Source: Gammaproteobacteria bacterium 50_400_T64
GTDB taxonomy: Bacteria; Pseudomonadota; Gammaproteobacteria; Pseudomonadales; Porticoccaceae
Direction: 5' to 3'
NCBI GenBank assembly: GCA_002162755.1
Contig: MAAS01000005.1
Location: forward strand, 1 to 64,000
DNA: 64,000 nt
How positions within the stretch are numbered: the first letter of the stretch is position 1; each line of letters begins with the position of its first letter. Of the stretch, positions 19,386-30,576 are shown in pieces. The position numbers and the translations under genes are program-made. Under the pieces are notes generated by a model. It made no database searches. It saw only the letters and a list, made by a program, of their open reading frames with translations, and was not told where the DNA came from.

Positions 19386-20810
19386 TTACTCGCCCTGTAT
19401 CTTTTCCACTATTGCTGTCGTTGAACAGTCATCGAGAAAATCGAGCGCTTGTACTCCCCCCCCGTAAGACTCAACAATTTCCCAACCCACGACCTGTTCT
19501 TTTTTGTAGTCCCCGCCCTTAACCAAAATATCGGGACGAATCAGCTCGAGTAGTCTTTCCGGTGTGTCATCGGTAAACACTAGCACCCAGTCGACGGATT
19601 CAAGACCCGCCAACACAGCCATGCGCCGATCTTCAGAATTAATTGGCCGACCCTCACCTTTAAGGCGACGCACCGATTCATCGGCATTCACCGCGACAAT
19701 TAATCGCTGACCCAGGCCACGCGCCTGCTCGAGATAACCGACATGCCCGGCATGCAAAATATCGAAACAACCATTGGTAAAAACGATGTTCTCACCGTGA
19801 GCGCGAGCATCCGCCAGATCAACCAACAGCTGCTCTTCATTAACAACACCGCGCCCGTGGCCTTGCTCAAACTGCAGAGCACGGCGTAACTCGGGCGCAC
19901 TAATAGTGGCTGTACCCAGTTTTCCGACCACGATACTCGCCGCTAAATTGGCCAGCACGACCGCAGACGTCAACTCTTCACCCGCACCCAGAGCGGCGGC
20001 TAATACGGAGATCACCGTATCGCCCGCGCCAGTAACATCAAAGACCTCACGCGCTCGCGCTGGCAGATGAAATTCTGGCATGCCCTGACGCAGCAGAGTC
20101 ATGCCATGTTCGCCACGGGTGACCAATAAAGCTGTCAAATTCAGCTTTTCAAGCAGGGCCAGGCCCTTTTCAACAAGCTCTCCCTCACTGGCACAAGGGC
20201 CGACGACCGCTTCAAATTCACCCATATTCGGGGTGATCAAAGTGGCGCCTTGATAGCGGCTAAAATCACTACCTTTGGGGTCAACCAGAACCGGGATGCT
20301 AAGTTTGCTGGCCGCTTGAATCAATTCGACGGGGTTTTGCAGCGCGCCCTTGCCATAATCCGAGAGCACCAGAGCACTGACACCTTCTAGCAAGACCTCT
20401 ACTTTGCTGGGAATCTGGTCAGTATCGGCCGCTGTAAATGCCTCCTCAAAATCGAGGCGTAATAATTGTTGATGGCGGCTAATCACACGTAACTTGGTAA
20501 TCGTCGGTTTATCCGTAGAAACCTGGAAATCTGTGCGAATACCCGCCGAGTTAAAACGAGTCTCGAGAGAGTACGCCGCTTCATCCGCGCCGACGACACC
20601 GACAAGAGAAGCCCCTGCGCCCAGCGCCGCGATATTGAGAGCAACATTGCCAGCACCACCGACTCGGTCTTCCAGCTGCTCCACCTTCACTACGGGTACA
20701 GGCGCTTCCGGTGAAATTCTCGAGGTCGGCCCCTGCCAGTAGCGGTCGAGCATGACATCGCCAACCACTAATATTTGCGCGCCGTCAAAGCGTGGCATCT
20801 TTACCTTCAA
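19386..20810 (-). CDS. hldE: bifunctional heptose-7-phosphate kinase / heptose-1-phosphate adenylyltransferase
   Basis: HldE makes ADP-D-glycero-D-manno-heptose for the LPS inner core: the N-terminal domain phosphorylates heptose 7-phosphate at C1 and the C-terminal domain adenylylates it. The 474 residues contain a PfkB kinase domain (about 8-320: VGDVMLDRYW, VGGAGNVALN, DVTGAGDTVISVLAAAL) and a nucleotidyltransferase domain (about 340-470: FTNGCFDILHAGHVGYLEQA with the HxGH motif). The length is standard for the fused form. It is immediately upstream of other core genes and follows waaC on the same strand. Confidence 0.96.
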   Translation of the reverse strand: MKVKMPRFDGAQILVVGDVMLDRYWQGPTSRISPEAPVPVVKVEQLEDRVGGAGNVALNIAALGAGASLVGVVGADEAAYSLETRFNSAGIRTDFQVSTDKPTITKLRVISRHQQLLRLDFEEAFTAADTDQIPSKVEVLLEGVSALVLSDYGKGALQNPVELIQAASKLSIPVLVDPKGSDFSRYQGATLITPNMGEFEAVVGPCASEGELVEKGLALLEKLNLTALLVTRGEHGMTLLRQGMPEFHLPARAREVFDVTGAGDTVISVLAAALGAGEELTSAVVLANLAASIVVGKLGTATISAPELRRALQFEQGHGRGVVNEEQLLVDLADARAHGENIVFTNGCFDILHAGHVGYLEQARGLGQRLIVAVNADESVRRLKGEGRPINSEDRRMAVLAGLESVDWVLVFTDDTPERLLELIRPDILVKGGDYKKEQVVGWEIVESYGGGVQALDFLDDCSTTAIVEKIQGE

Positions 20811-26584: not shown

Positions 26585-27409
26585 TTACTTAAACGGCAAT
26601 ACTGGCAGGCGCTTAAAATCTCTACGGTAGAGCTGTACTGCACGCTTTGTCACACTACCGAGAAATTCTTCCTGACGACTAAAAACCTCATGTAGTGGCA
26701 TATCAAAATAGACCTTCAAAAAAAGATAGACATCTTTTTTTGTCAGCCCAATATCCAGCGATGAAAAATAAATGCTGGCGATATCTTTCACTAACCAGCG
26801 ACGCGGCACAGCTGTTCGCATCTGCGCACGATGCAAGTCGACAAGAAAAAGTCGCGGGTCATTCTTTGCATTATTATCCCGCGATGACAAATCGAGCAAG
26901 AAGTGACAAATATATAAATCTCGGTGATTAATGCCGTCATCGTGAATCGTCCGCGCTATCGTCGCCACCTTGCGAATTAAGGCGCGTCGCTCACTGGGTG
27001 CTGGCGGTTTATTTGGCCACTGCTCAGCATACTGGGCCAAACTTAAAGTATTACTTAATTCTTCGGTAACCAGAAAGGAGAGTTTTTTAGCCGGATTATG
27101 GCCTTTACAACCATAGGCCAGTGCATTCAGTGAATCGAGACCCAGCTCGTGAACGCGGTTAATTGCCAGCCATTCATTCGCAGCGCCCGTTACTGGCATC
27201 TTCAATTGTAGAAAGTTTTTGAAGATTTCTCGCCAACCGATACCGGTATGCATTTTTCGATAATAGGTTTTCCCGTCCAGCTCAAACTTCATTGTCTGGC
27301 GGCCCTCTTTATCGCGAACCACTTCGCCATCCAGCGCCTGCAATAAAGCAAAGACATCTTTATCACGCCACAGCGCCTGCAACTCACCCCGAAGTATTAA
27401 TTCAGTCAC
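26585..27409 (-). CDS. waaP: LPS core heptose I kinase
   Basis: Phosphorylates heptose I of the inner core, which lets divalent cations bridge LPS molecules and is needed for outer-membrane integrity. The 274 residues contain the WaaP hallmarks MKFELDGKTYYRKMHTGIGW, INHRDLYICHFLLDL (catalytic Asp) and LFLVDLHRAQMR (metal Asp). The start is a GTG that overlaps the waaG stop by 4 bases (GTGA), indicating translational coupling with waaG. Confidence 0.93.
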   Translation of the reverse strand: MTELILRGELQALWRDKDVFALLQALDGEVVRDKEGRQTMKFELDGKTYYRKMHTGIGWREIFKNFLQLKMPVTGAANEWLAINRVHELGLDSLNALAYGCKGHNPAKKLSFLVTEELSNTLSLAQYAEQWPNKPPAPSERRALIRKVATIARTIHDDGINHRDLYICHFLLDLSSRDNNAKNDPRLFLVDLHRAQMRTAVPRRWLVKDIASIYFSSLDIGLTKKDVYLFLKVYFDMPLHEVFSRQEEFLGSVTKRAVQLYRRDFKRLPVLPFK

Positions 27410-28557
27410 TGACCCGCACTCTTTTCATCGGCAAGCTTTTCCATAATATCGACCGCCACTTGAGGGCGACTATAAACATCACTATTTTTCGCAAAGTGTT
27501 CACCCTTAAGATGCCACTGTTCGCCCGGTACAGCGAGAGCCTGATTAATCGCGACCACAAAATCGTCACTATTAAACGGGCTGGCAATCACTGCGCCCAT
27601 CTGCGCATCTCGCACATAGTGCGCATAGCCGCAGACATCACTTGTCACCACCGGCAAACCGGCAATCATCGCTTCGAGTAAGGCATTACCGGTATTTTCT
27701 TTATAGGCGGGATGCAGCAGCACATCGGCCGCCTGCAATAAATCGGGCACATCATCGCGACCACCGAGAAAACGTACCCTCTCATTTAAGCCGAGTTTTT
27801 CCGCCTGACGCACAAATTGTTCACGCTTGTCTTCACCGACCACGAGCAGTACACCATCCACCCCCTGCTCACACAGCGCATGTAAAGCAGCAATACTGCG
27901 ATCCAGCCCTTTGGTTTTATAACCAGAGCCCAGGGCCAGAAAACATTTTTTCTCATCGCTTAAGCCCAACTGCTCGCGCATTTCACGGCGAATCTCACGC
28001 CAGTTATCCGGGGCTACGCGATTAGTGGCAATCCCCGGCGGCAAGGTATGAAATCGATTTTCTGCCGTGCCGTAACACTGTAAAAATCGTTCACGTTCGG
28101 GGCGGGAAACTTCGAGAATTTGTGTTTTCGAGTCAGCACTAAAGACCGCGTCTTCAAGTTTTAAATAGGCTTTTGTTCTCGGCGCCAAGCGATAAAAGAA
28201 ACCCCTTTCAACATTTGCTTTATAGGCAAAACAGGAATCGGCCGCATAGTACAAATCCAGCCCCGGCCATTTATTAAAGCCTACCAGCAAATCATAGGCT
28301 TTTAATTGCGGGCGTAAATCAGCGGCAAAGTTTTGCATGCGCGCCGCATTGTCCCAGCCTCGCGAAGGAATCAGTTGCAGATCAATTTCCGGCGGACAGT
28401 CGCCCTGCCAGTCACTGCAATAAATAGTGACGGCATGACCCCGGGCGATAGCTTCCAACGCCATTGCCAGCATATTGCGCTGTAAGCCGCCGAAGGGAAA
28501 ATACTTATAGAGTGCGAAGGCAAGCTTCAAGGATGGCAGCTCATTGGTTCCGACCAT
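27406..28557 (-). CDS. waaG: LPS core glycosyltransferase WaaG (GT4)
   Basis: Adds the first outer-core hexose to heptose II at the cytoplasmic face. The 383 residues have the WaaG N-terminus LKLAFALYKYFPFGGLQRNM, the acceptor region VGFNKWPGLDLYYAADSCFA, and the GT4 donor motif HPAYKENTGNALLEAMIAGL. It begins 3 bases after the waaF stop and overlaps waaP, so waaF-waaG-waaP is one tight operon, as in Pseudomonas. Confidence 0.93.
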   Translation of the reverse strand: MVGTNELPSLKLAFALYKYFPFGGLQRNMLAMALEAIARGHAVTIYCSDWQGDCPPEIDLQLIPSRGWDNAARMQNFAADLRPQLKAYDLLVGFNKWPGLDLYYAADSCFAYKANVERGFFYRLAPRTKAYLKLEDAVFSADSKTQILEVSRPERERFLQCYGTAENRFHTLPPGIATNRVAPDNWREIRREMREQLGLSDEKKCFLALGSGYKTKGLDRSIAALHALCEQGVDGVLLVVGEDKREQFVRQAEKLGLNERVRFLGGRDDVPDLLQAADVLLHPAYKENTGNALLEAMIAGLPVVTSDVCGYAHYVRDAQMGAVIASPFNSDDFVVAINQALAVPGEQWHLKGEHFAKNSDVYSRPQVAVDIMEKLADEKSAGQ

Positions 28558-28560
28558 GAG

Positions 28561-29622
28561 TCAGACTTGTTCGAACGTAGCGGAACCAACCAGCCTGCCC
28601 AGCGCTGTAATGACCCGCTGCGGCTCAAGCTCGACCAGGCACTTTACGTCGCCTCGCGGACATTCCCGCTGAAAACAGGGGCCGCAATCGACTGGCACTG
28701 ACAACACCTCAACACACTCACCTAGCGGCGGCGTGAAGCCGGGGGATGTCGAGCCGTAAACCACGACTAGCGGCCGACCCAGTGCGGCGGCAATGTGCAT
28801 TAAACCCGAGTCATTACTGACGACAGCTGAAGCCATGGAAAGTAAATCAATGGCTTCAGCTAGCTCAGTTTCTCCGGCAAGGTTGCGGATAAACGCACTA
28901 TTTTCACCCTCGATAGATTCTGCAATATGCTCACCAACCTCGGCATCACTTGCAGACCCCATTAACCAAACCTGCCAACCACGGCCAAGCATCTCTTCAG
29001 CAACGGCTTGATAGTGCTCCTCGGGCCAACGCTTAGCGGGGCCAAATTCAGCACCCGGACACAAGGCCAAAACGGGGCGCTGAAGATTGAGACCAAGCTT
29101 GTCACGCAAGTTCTGCAGGCCCGATTCGTCAACCTTCAGATGTGGCCGAGGTAGCTCAGCAGGTAGGGCTTTACCCTCCGCGTAAGCCAGGGCGATAAAG
29201 CGCTCTATCATCAAGGGATAGCGCTCTTTATCGAGCAGACGAATATCATTGAGCAAGCCGAAACGCATTTCACCGCGCCAACCCACACGCAGTGGAATAC
29301 CGGCAAAGGCGGGGATTAAGGCGGACTTTAAAGAATTGGGCAGCACATAAGCTGCGTCGTAAGCCTGCTTGCGCAACTGCTGCGCCAGAGCCCAACGTTT
29401 GGACAGCGCCAGTTCACCATGGCCTATCGGCATAGCGATAGCGGCATTGACTTCCGGCATACGTTCAATAATTGGCCGACTCCAGGCTGGTGCCAACACG
29501 TCGATGCTGCAATCGGGATCAAGCTGTTTAAGGCTGGTAAATAGCGTTTGTGCCATCACCATATCGCCGACCCAGGAAGGGCCGACGATGAGGATTTTGT
29601 TACTGTTAACGGGGGTGTTAAT
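28561..29622 (-). CDS. waaF: LPS heptosyltransferase II, apparent ATT start codon
   Basis: Adds heptose II to heptose I (GT9). The ORF track starts at ATG 29562, inside the conserved N-terminal motif. The same frame extends upstream through KILIVGPSWVGDMVMAQ, which is the start of WaaF in all relatives, but an in-frame TAA lies about 39 bases further up and there is no ATG, GTG, TTG or CTG between. The best start is ATT at 29622, giving MNTPVNSNKILIVGPSW, with AAGGGA 7 bases upstream. The product is 353 residues. Donor-site residues VVSNDSGLMHIAAALGRPLV are intact. It follows ilvE by 24 bases. Confidence 0.9.
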   Translation of the reverse strand: MNTPVNSNKILIVGPSWVGDMVMAQTLFTSLKQLDPDCSIDVLAPAWSRPIIERMPEVNAAIAMPIGHGELALSKRWALAQQLRKQAYDAAYVLPNSLKSALIPAFAGIPLRVGWRGEMRFGLLNDIRLLDKERYPLMIERFIALAYAEGKALPAELPRPHLKVDESGLQNLRDKLGLNLQRPVLALCPGAEFGPAKRWPEEHYQAVAEEMLGRGWQVWLMGSASDAEVGEHIAESIEGENSAFIRNLAGETELAEAIDLLSMASAVVSNDSGLMHIAAALGRPLVVVYGSTSPGFTPPLGECVEVLSVPVDCGPCFQRECPRGDVKCLVELEPQRVITALGRLVGSATFEQV

Positions 29623-29636
29623 GGGAGTGTCCCTTA
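29620..29636 (-). promoter_or_regulatory. ribosome-binding site and ATT initiation codon of waaF
   Basis: On the minus strand the sequence reads AAGGGACACTCCCATT: a Shine-Dalgarno-like AAGGGA, 7 bases, then ATT. This is the only well-placed initiation site upstream of the conserved WaaF N-terminus. ATT is used naturally by infC and a few other genes. The alternative is that this base is a sequencing error or a mutation of ATG. Confidence 0.55.
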
Positions 29637-29646
29637 TGAAAGGTAC

Positions 29647-30576
29647 TTAACCGTTAATCGGCGACAGCCACTCAGGGTGCTCGTCGTTGCGACCGCGCAC
29701 TGCGTCAAAATAAGCCGTTTGCAGCTCTGCAGTAATTGGCCCACGCGAGCCACAACCGATCTCGCGATTATCCAACTCACGAATCGGCAATACTTCAGCC
29801 GCGGTACCGGTGAAGAAGGCTTCGTCGGCGATATACACTTCGTCACGAGTAATACGTTTTTCACGCACTTCGTAACCGCGCTCCTGTGCCATTTGAATGA
29901 CACTGCCACGGGTGATCCCGTCGAGACAAGAGGTCAGCTCGGGCGTGTAGAGCACGCCATCGCGCACGATGAAAATATTCTCGCCACTGCCTTCGGCGAC
30001 GTAGCCCTCGACATCAAGTAGTAAGGCCTCGTCGTAGCCATTCTTCAGTGCTTCACGCAGCGCCATCATCGAATTCATGTAATTGCCATTCGCCTTGGCT
30101 TTACACATGGTGATGTTGACGTGGTGACGCGTATAAGAAGAGGTGTGAATGCGAATACCCTTCTCGAGAGATTCGGGGCTCATATACGAGGGCCATTCCC
30201 ATGAAGCGACAATGACGTGGGTCGACAAACCGTCGGCACGCAGGCCCATAGCCTCTGAACCGAGAAAAGCCATAGGACGCAAATAAGCCTCTTCAAGATT
30301 GTTGGCTTTCACCACATCGAGCTGAGCCTGATTTAGTGTGTCTTCATCGAAAGGCATGTCCATGCCAACAATTTTGGCCGAGTTATGCAGGCGTTTAGTG
30401 TGTTCTTTCAAACGAAAAATCGCCGTGCCTTTGTTCTCGGTATTGTAAGCGCGCACGCCTTCAAACACGCCCATGCCGTAGTGCAGAGTATGAGTAAGCA
30501 CATGCACTTTGGCATCACGCCAGGGCACCATCTCTCCATCAAACCAAATATAACCGTCACGATCTGCAAACGACAT
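29647..30576 (-). CDS. ilvE: branched-chain amino acid aminotransferase
   Basis: A PLP enzyme of fold type IV that carries out the last step of Ile, Leu and Val synthesis. The 309 residues begin SFADRDGYIWFDGEMVPW, with LHYGMGVFEGVRAYNT and the PLP-lysine region ITMCKAKANGNYMNSMMAL. The end, DNREIGCGSRGPITAELQ, is the usual one. The start is set by GAGGAG in GTAGAGGAGTAGTTCAATG. It lies 12 bases after glnE and just before waaF, so amino acid and LPS genes may share a transcript. Confidence 0.96.
   Translation of the reverse strand: MSFADRDGYIWFDGEMVPWRDAKVHVLTHTLHYGMGVFEGVRAYNTENKGTAIFRLKEHTKRLHNSAKIVGMDMPFDEDTLNQAQLDVVKANNLEEAYLRPMAFLGSEAMGLRADGLSTHVIVASWEWPSYMSPESLEKGIRIHTSSYTRHHVNITMCKAKANGNYMNSMMALREALKNGYDEALLLDVEGYVAEGSGENIFIVRDGVLYTPELTSCLDGITRGSVIQMAQERGYEVREKRITRDEVYIADEAFFTGTAAEVLPIRELDNREIGCGSRGPITAELQTAYFDAVRGRNDEHPEWLSPING

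Follow-up and report, generated by a model that had tools for sequence, protein, structure and literature searches.

Non-canonical start codons in bacteria

Apart from the gene considered here, the AUU start codon is to our knowledge known mainly from infC, and from few other bacterial genes. The infC gene of E. coli starts with ATT, and IF3 destabilises initiation at non-canonical codons (PMC5472188). A second E. coli gene with an AUU start is pcnB (Binns and Masters, 2002, as cited in PMC9410913 and PMC13009471). In S. aureus reporters with non-canonical starts, AUU or AUA and among them the AUU of cvfC1, reached about 10% of the output from AUG when the medium was poor (PMC13009471).

The waaF gene described below resembles infC, both that of E. 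coli and that of its own genus, in having a putative AUU start with a purine-rich Shine-Dalgarno (SD) sequence 6-7 nt upstream, and in the genus the two starts are conserved in the same genomes. The infC product, however, discriminates against its own start codon in an autoregulatory loop, whereas waaF would be a target only. E. coli pcnB shows that limitation by an AUU is not confined to infC (cited in PMC9410913 and PMC13009471), but it is another gene in another lineage. The S. aureus genes cvfC1 (AUU) and ccpN (AUA) are examples of conserved non-canonical starts outside infC (PMC13009471); they have extended, strong SD sequences, whereas that of waaF is weak to moderate. Streptomyces sigR is a further gene besides infC whose non-canonical start is genus-wide (PMC5472188), although the codon is GTC and not ATT, and the effect of IF3 was measured for sigR while we infer it for waaF.

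In the genus studied here infC starts with ATT in 6/6 genomes with a match, and its SD is UGGAGA or CGGAGA, 6 nt upstream, with a pairing energy of -6.4 to -6.6 kcal/mol. The ATT of infC makes it very likely that AUU initiation is in use by these ribosomes. The pcnB gene was considered as a second positive control and set aside, as it has a conserved ATG start in this genus. It should be noted that an ORF caller limited to ATG/GTG/TTG begins inside the infC gene of this genus.

The waaF locus

The window is the whole stretch of DNA analysed, 64,000 nucleotides of a 3.05 Mb draft genome; the genus comprises uncultured gammaproteobacteria. The features which concern the start of waaF are the following.

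27406-28557, minus strand: waaG-like glycosyltransferase gene, downstream, beginning 3 nt after the waaF stop
28561-29622, minus strand: waaF, ADP-heptose:LPS heptosyltransferase II, 353 codons from the ATT, plus stop
29560-29562, minus strand: first in-frame ATG, rejected as start, 12 codons within the conserved region
29602-29625, minus strand: 12-nt imperfect tandem duplication, CCCATTAACACC / CCCGTTAACAGT, seen in comparison with five relatives
29620-29622, minus strand: putative ATT start codon, in 6/6 genus genomes having waaF, none with a usable canonical start
29630-29635, minus strand: AAGGGA, SD-like, 7 nt before the ATT, predicted anti-SD duplex -5.3 kcal/mol
29647-30576, minus strand: ilvE, the gene upstream of waaF, its stop ending 24 nt before the ATT

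The waaF product matches the TIGR02195 profile with 499.8 bits (cut-off 134.6) over profile positions 1-337 of 339, starting from residue 9, and E. coli WaaF (PDB 1PSW) with E=3.1e-113. With 422.4 bits it stays below the cut-off of 569 of the enterobacterial RfaF model NF008162; the fitting family model for this WaaF is TIGR02195, not NF008162. A first-pass annotation of the window had placed the gene at 28561-29636. This was slightly off: the gene occupies 28561-29622, and 29623-29636 belongs to the leader.

In the frame of waaF, which is on the minus strand, the upstream part reads taa(29649) gta cct ttc ata agg gac act ccc ATT(29622). After the ATT come aac acc ccc gtt aac agt aac aaa(29598), and from there on atc ctc atc gtc ggc cct tcc tgg gtc ggc gat ATG(29562). 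The first-pass annotation had stated that no ATG, GTG, TTG or CTG lies between the in-frame TAA and the N-terminal motif. Re-reading of the window sequence bears this out: there is none in frame between the stop at 29649-29647 and the conserved WaaF N-terminus motif, and from the ilvE stop to ATG 29562 all frames are free of ATG, GTG and TTG.

The N-terminal codons ahead of ATG 29562

ATG 29562 is the earliest canonical codon in the frame and would be picked by an automatic gene caller; a protein started there would be made without its first 20 residues. The codons ahead of this ATG specify the first strand of the enzyme together with its GPSWVGD loop, where, going by the related enzyme WaaC, a catalytic Asp is located. 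The TIGR02195 match begins at profile position 1, but from ATG 29562 it would begin at position 13, so that positions 1-12 are lost; the first-pass annotation had predicted a deletion of the first beta strand and the acceptor loop. In the 12 codons that begin with the conserved Lys and end next to the ATG, the pairwise differences among the six genomes number 28 synonymous and 0 nonsynonymous; the remainder of waaF has a pN/pS of 0.15 in the same genomes. Purifying selection therefore acts on the N-terminal part that precedes this ATG. Together with the 1PSW alignment, which begins at residue 2 of that protein, these differences indicate that the N-terminus is translated, and we consider a start at ATG 29562 very unlikely. 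The 5' end of waaF also has a low synonymous divergence, but this was discarded as a special signal, as ilvE shows the same.

Comparison within and outside the genus

The genus sample consists of seven genomes, of which six have waaF (the window genome and G002-G006). In the seventh, G001, which is 94% complete, ilvE and waaF are both absent from the assembly. ATT is found at the equivalent position in all five of the other genomes with waaF, while the flanking bases differ; after the ATT the five relatives have AAM/AAT, MGY, AAN, AAA, ATM, CTN, ATY, GTC and GGC. A canonical start a few codons away in relatives, named in the first-pass annotation as evidence against the ATT, was looked for in these five genomes and not found, and their conserved ATT upholds the start at 29622 which it had proposed.

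A usable canonical start is absent in 6/6 waaF loci of the genus against 0/121 loci outside it; all 121 have an ATG, GTG or TTG. The outside loci come from a search of 112 genomes belonging to other genera of the family, from the order and from named genomes, mostly Pseudomonas, and include a few that are counted twice because one genome occurs in two collections. Five of the six genus loci have zero canonical in-frame starts past the last stop. The sixth, in G002, has an ATG 32 codons upstream, which was rejected as start: it is inside ilvE, out of the ilvE frame and not conserved. Canonical starts in other frames do not offer candidates either; the window and G006 have none, and the others have out-of-frame TTG or GTG only.

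The Shine-Dalgarno sequence and the choice of start codon

The first-pass annotation was right that AAGGGA is at a good distance from the ATT, the spacing being 7 nt. In the relatives the SD is AAGGG, GAGG or GAG with a spacing of 6-7 nt. The energies predicted for pairing with the anti-SD are -5.3 kcal/mol for the window and for G006, -5.8 for G002 and -2.7 to -2.9 for G003-G005, with an anti-SD assumed to have the usual sequence, as the 3' end of 16S was not found in this draft genome. Random windows give a mean of -2.5 kcal/mol, and by this measure the SD is moderate in three genomes and weak (GAG only) in three. The tandem duplication at 29602-29625, which occurs in the window genome only, adds four codons after the ATT and leaves the spacing between ATT and SD unchanged.

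Initiation could also be imagined at other near-cognate codons, one base off AUG, such as AUC 29595 (which is AUA in G003) and, upstream of the ATT, AUA 29637. The upstream AUA is present in the window and G006 only. The AUC (or AUA) after the Lys lies five codons past the ATT in the relatives and nine in the window, about 21-34 nt from the SD, and a start there would lose the conserved Lys. Only the ATT is both near-cognate and at SD distance in each of the six genomes, and we consider initiation at the other codons very unlikely. With high confidence we propose that waaF of this genus starts at AUU (29622 in the window).

In the window ilvE shares its frame with waaF, a single stop standing between them, and waaF could in principle be made by readthrough of the ilvE stop or by a frameshift from ilvE. 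The distances from the ilvE stop to the ATT in the six genomes are, however, 24, 24, 28, 39, 27 and 41 nt; the frame relation of the two genes is not conserved, which excludes readthrough as a shared mechanism. G003 even has a second in-frame stop, a TGA three codons ahead of the ATT, and between it and the motif there is nothing but GAC ACA CTA ATT AAT AGT AAA AAA ATA. We regard synthesis by way of ilvE as extremely improbable. That the true codon is an ATG hidden by a sequencing or assembly error, which draft assemblies might suggest, has practically no probability left, as the identical ATT in six separate genomes with differing flanks rules it out.

With the AUU as start, waaF has in common with the class of infC and pcnB that there is no canonical start, that an ATT stands at SD distance and that it is conserved among relatives. 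On this sequence comparison waaF is an addition to the small known class of AUU-started genes. No earlier report of an AUU-started waaF was found in the open-access papers searched for waaF together with start codon.

Proposed initiation at the AUU and predicted expression of waaF

The AUU at 29622 would probably be read by fMet-tRNA, the purine-rich SD 6-7 nt upstream positioning the ribosome on it. Ribosomes which have just finished ilvE, 24-41 nt upstream, could possibly help, i.e. termination-reinitiation from ilvE may contribute to waaF expression. An SD is reported to promote reinitiation and an excess of IF3 to lower it (PMC2268962).

It is known biology that IF3 disfavours the AUU-CAU pairing, and the waaF level would for this reason lie below that obtained from AUG and respond to free IF3 as infC does. 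Low expression of waaF is likely by analogy with the known AUU and AUA starts, and repression by IF3 is a reasonable expectation from the codon; the AUU probably limits the amount of WaaF enzyme. The first-pass annotation had the sign reversed when it made AUU translation in infC dependent on IF3, since IF3 represses AUU starts. What benefit the cell would have from such regulation is speculation, and the AUU may also be a weak start that is tolerated. A conserved case in an envelope enzyme offers a testable example of a translation-level limit on LPS core synthesis.

The conservation of the third base itself says little about selection for AUU. ATT is found in all six genomes at 13/37 conserved Ile codons of waaF, waaG and ilvE. 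Among 68 fourfold sites with majority T in the same genes, 8 have T in all six genomes and 17 have G in at least one. By these counts a T kept at the third base is mildly unusual at best, and that G does not occur there is to be expected; the T, and not G, in six genomes is a weak sign of selection for AUU itself.

A hairpin inside the coding sequence

29566-29586, minus strand: predicted 8-bp perfect RNA hairpin, GUCGGCCC-UUCCU-GGGUCGGC, in the VGPSWVG codons of waaF

The predicted energy of this hairpin is -15.1 kcal/mol in all six genomes of the genus, and the sole change is in the loop. In the 121 other loci the region gives -13.8 to -2.1 kcal/mol, all less stable than in the genus, and -15 kcal/mol is reached by 0.25% of codon-usage-weighted random synonyms. 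Sister genera with ATG starts have the hairpin at -13.1 kcal/mol, so it is not specific to AUU and was ruled out as an AUU-specific partner. A tentative and rather doubtful model is that the genus-wide AUU links LPS core synthesis to the IF3 level, and hence to ribosome and growth status, possibly aided by the hairpin.

AUU starts and gene callers

AUU starts are invisible to gene callers, and the proteins are consequently truncated; comparison within a genus can reveal such starts. By comparison with G006 and G004, the window was surveyed for other genes in which a long conserved stretch precedes the first canonical start. The hldE gene at 19389 was checked as a further case and has an ordinary start, and the other marks were antisense frames or else near-identical DNA aligned over a short length. 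The sole clear functional gene in this survey was waaF.
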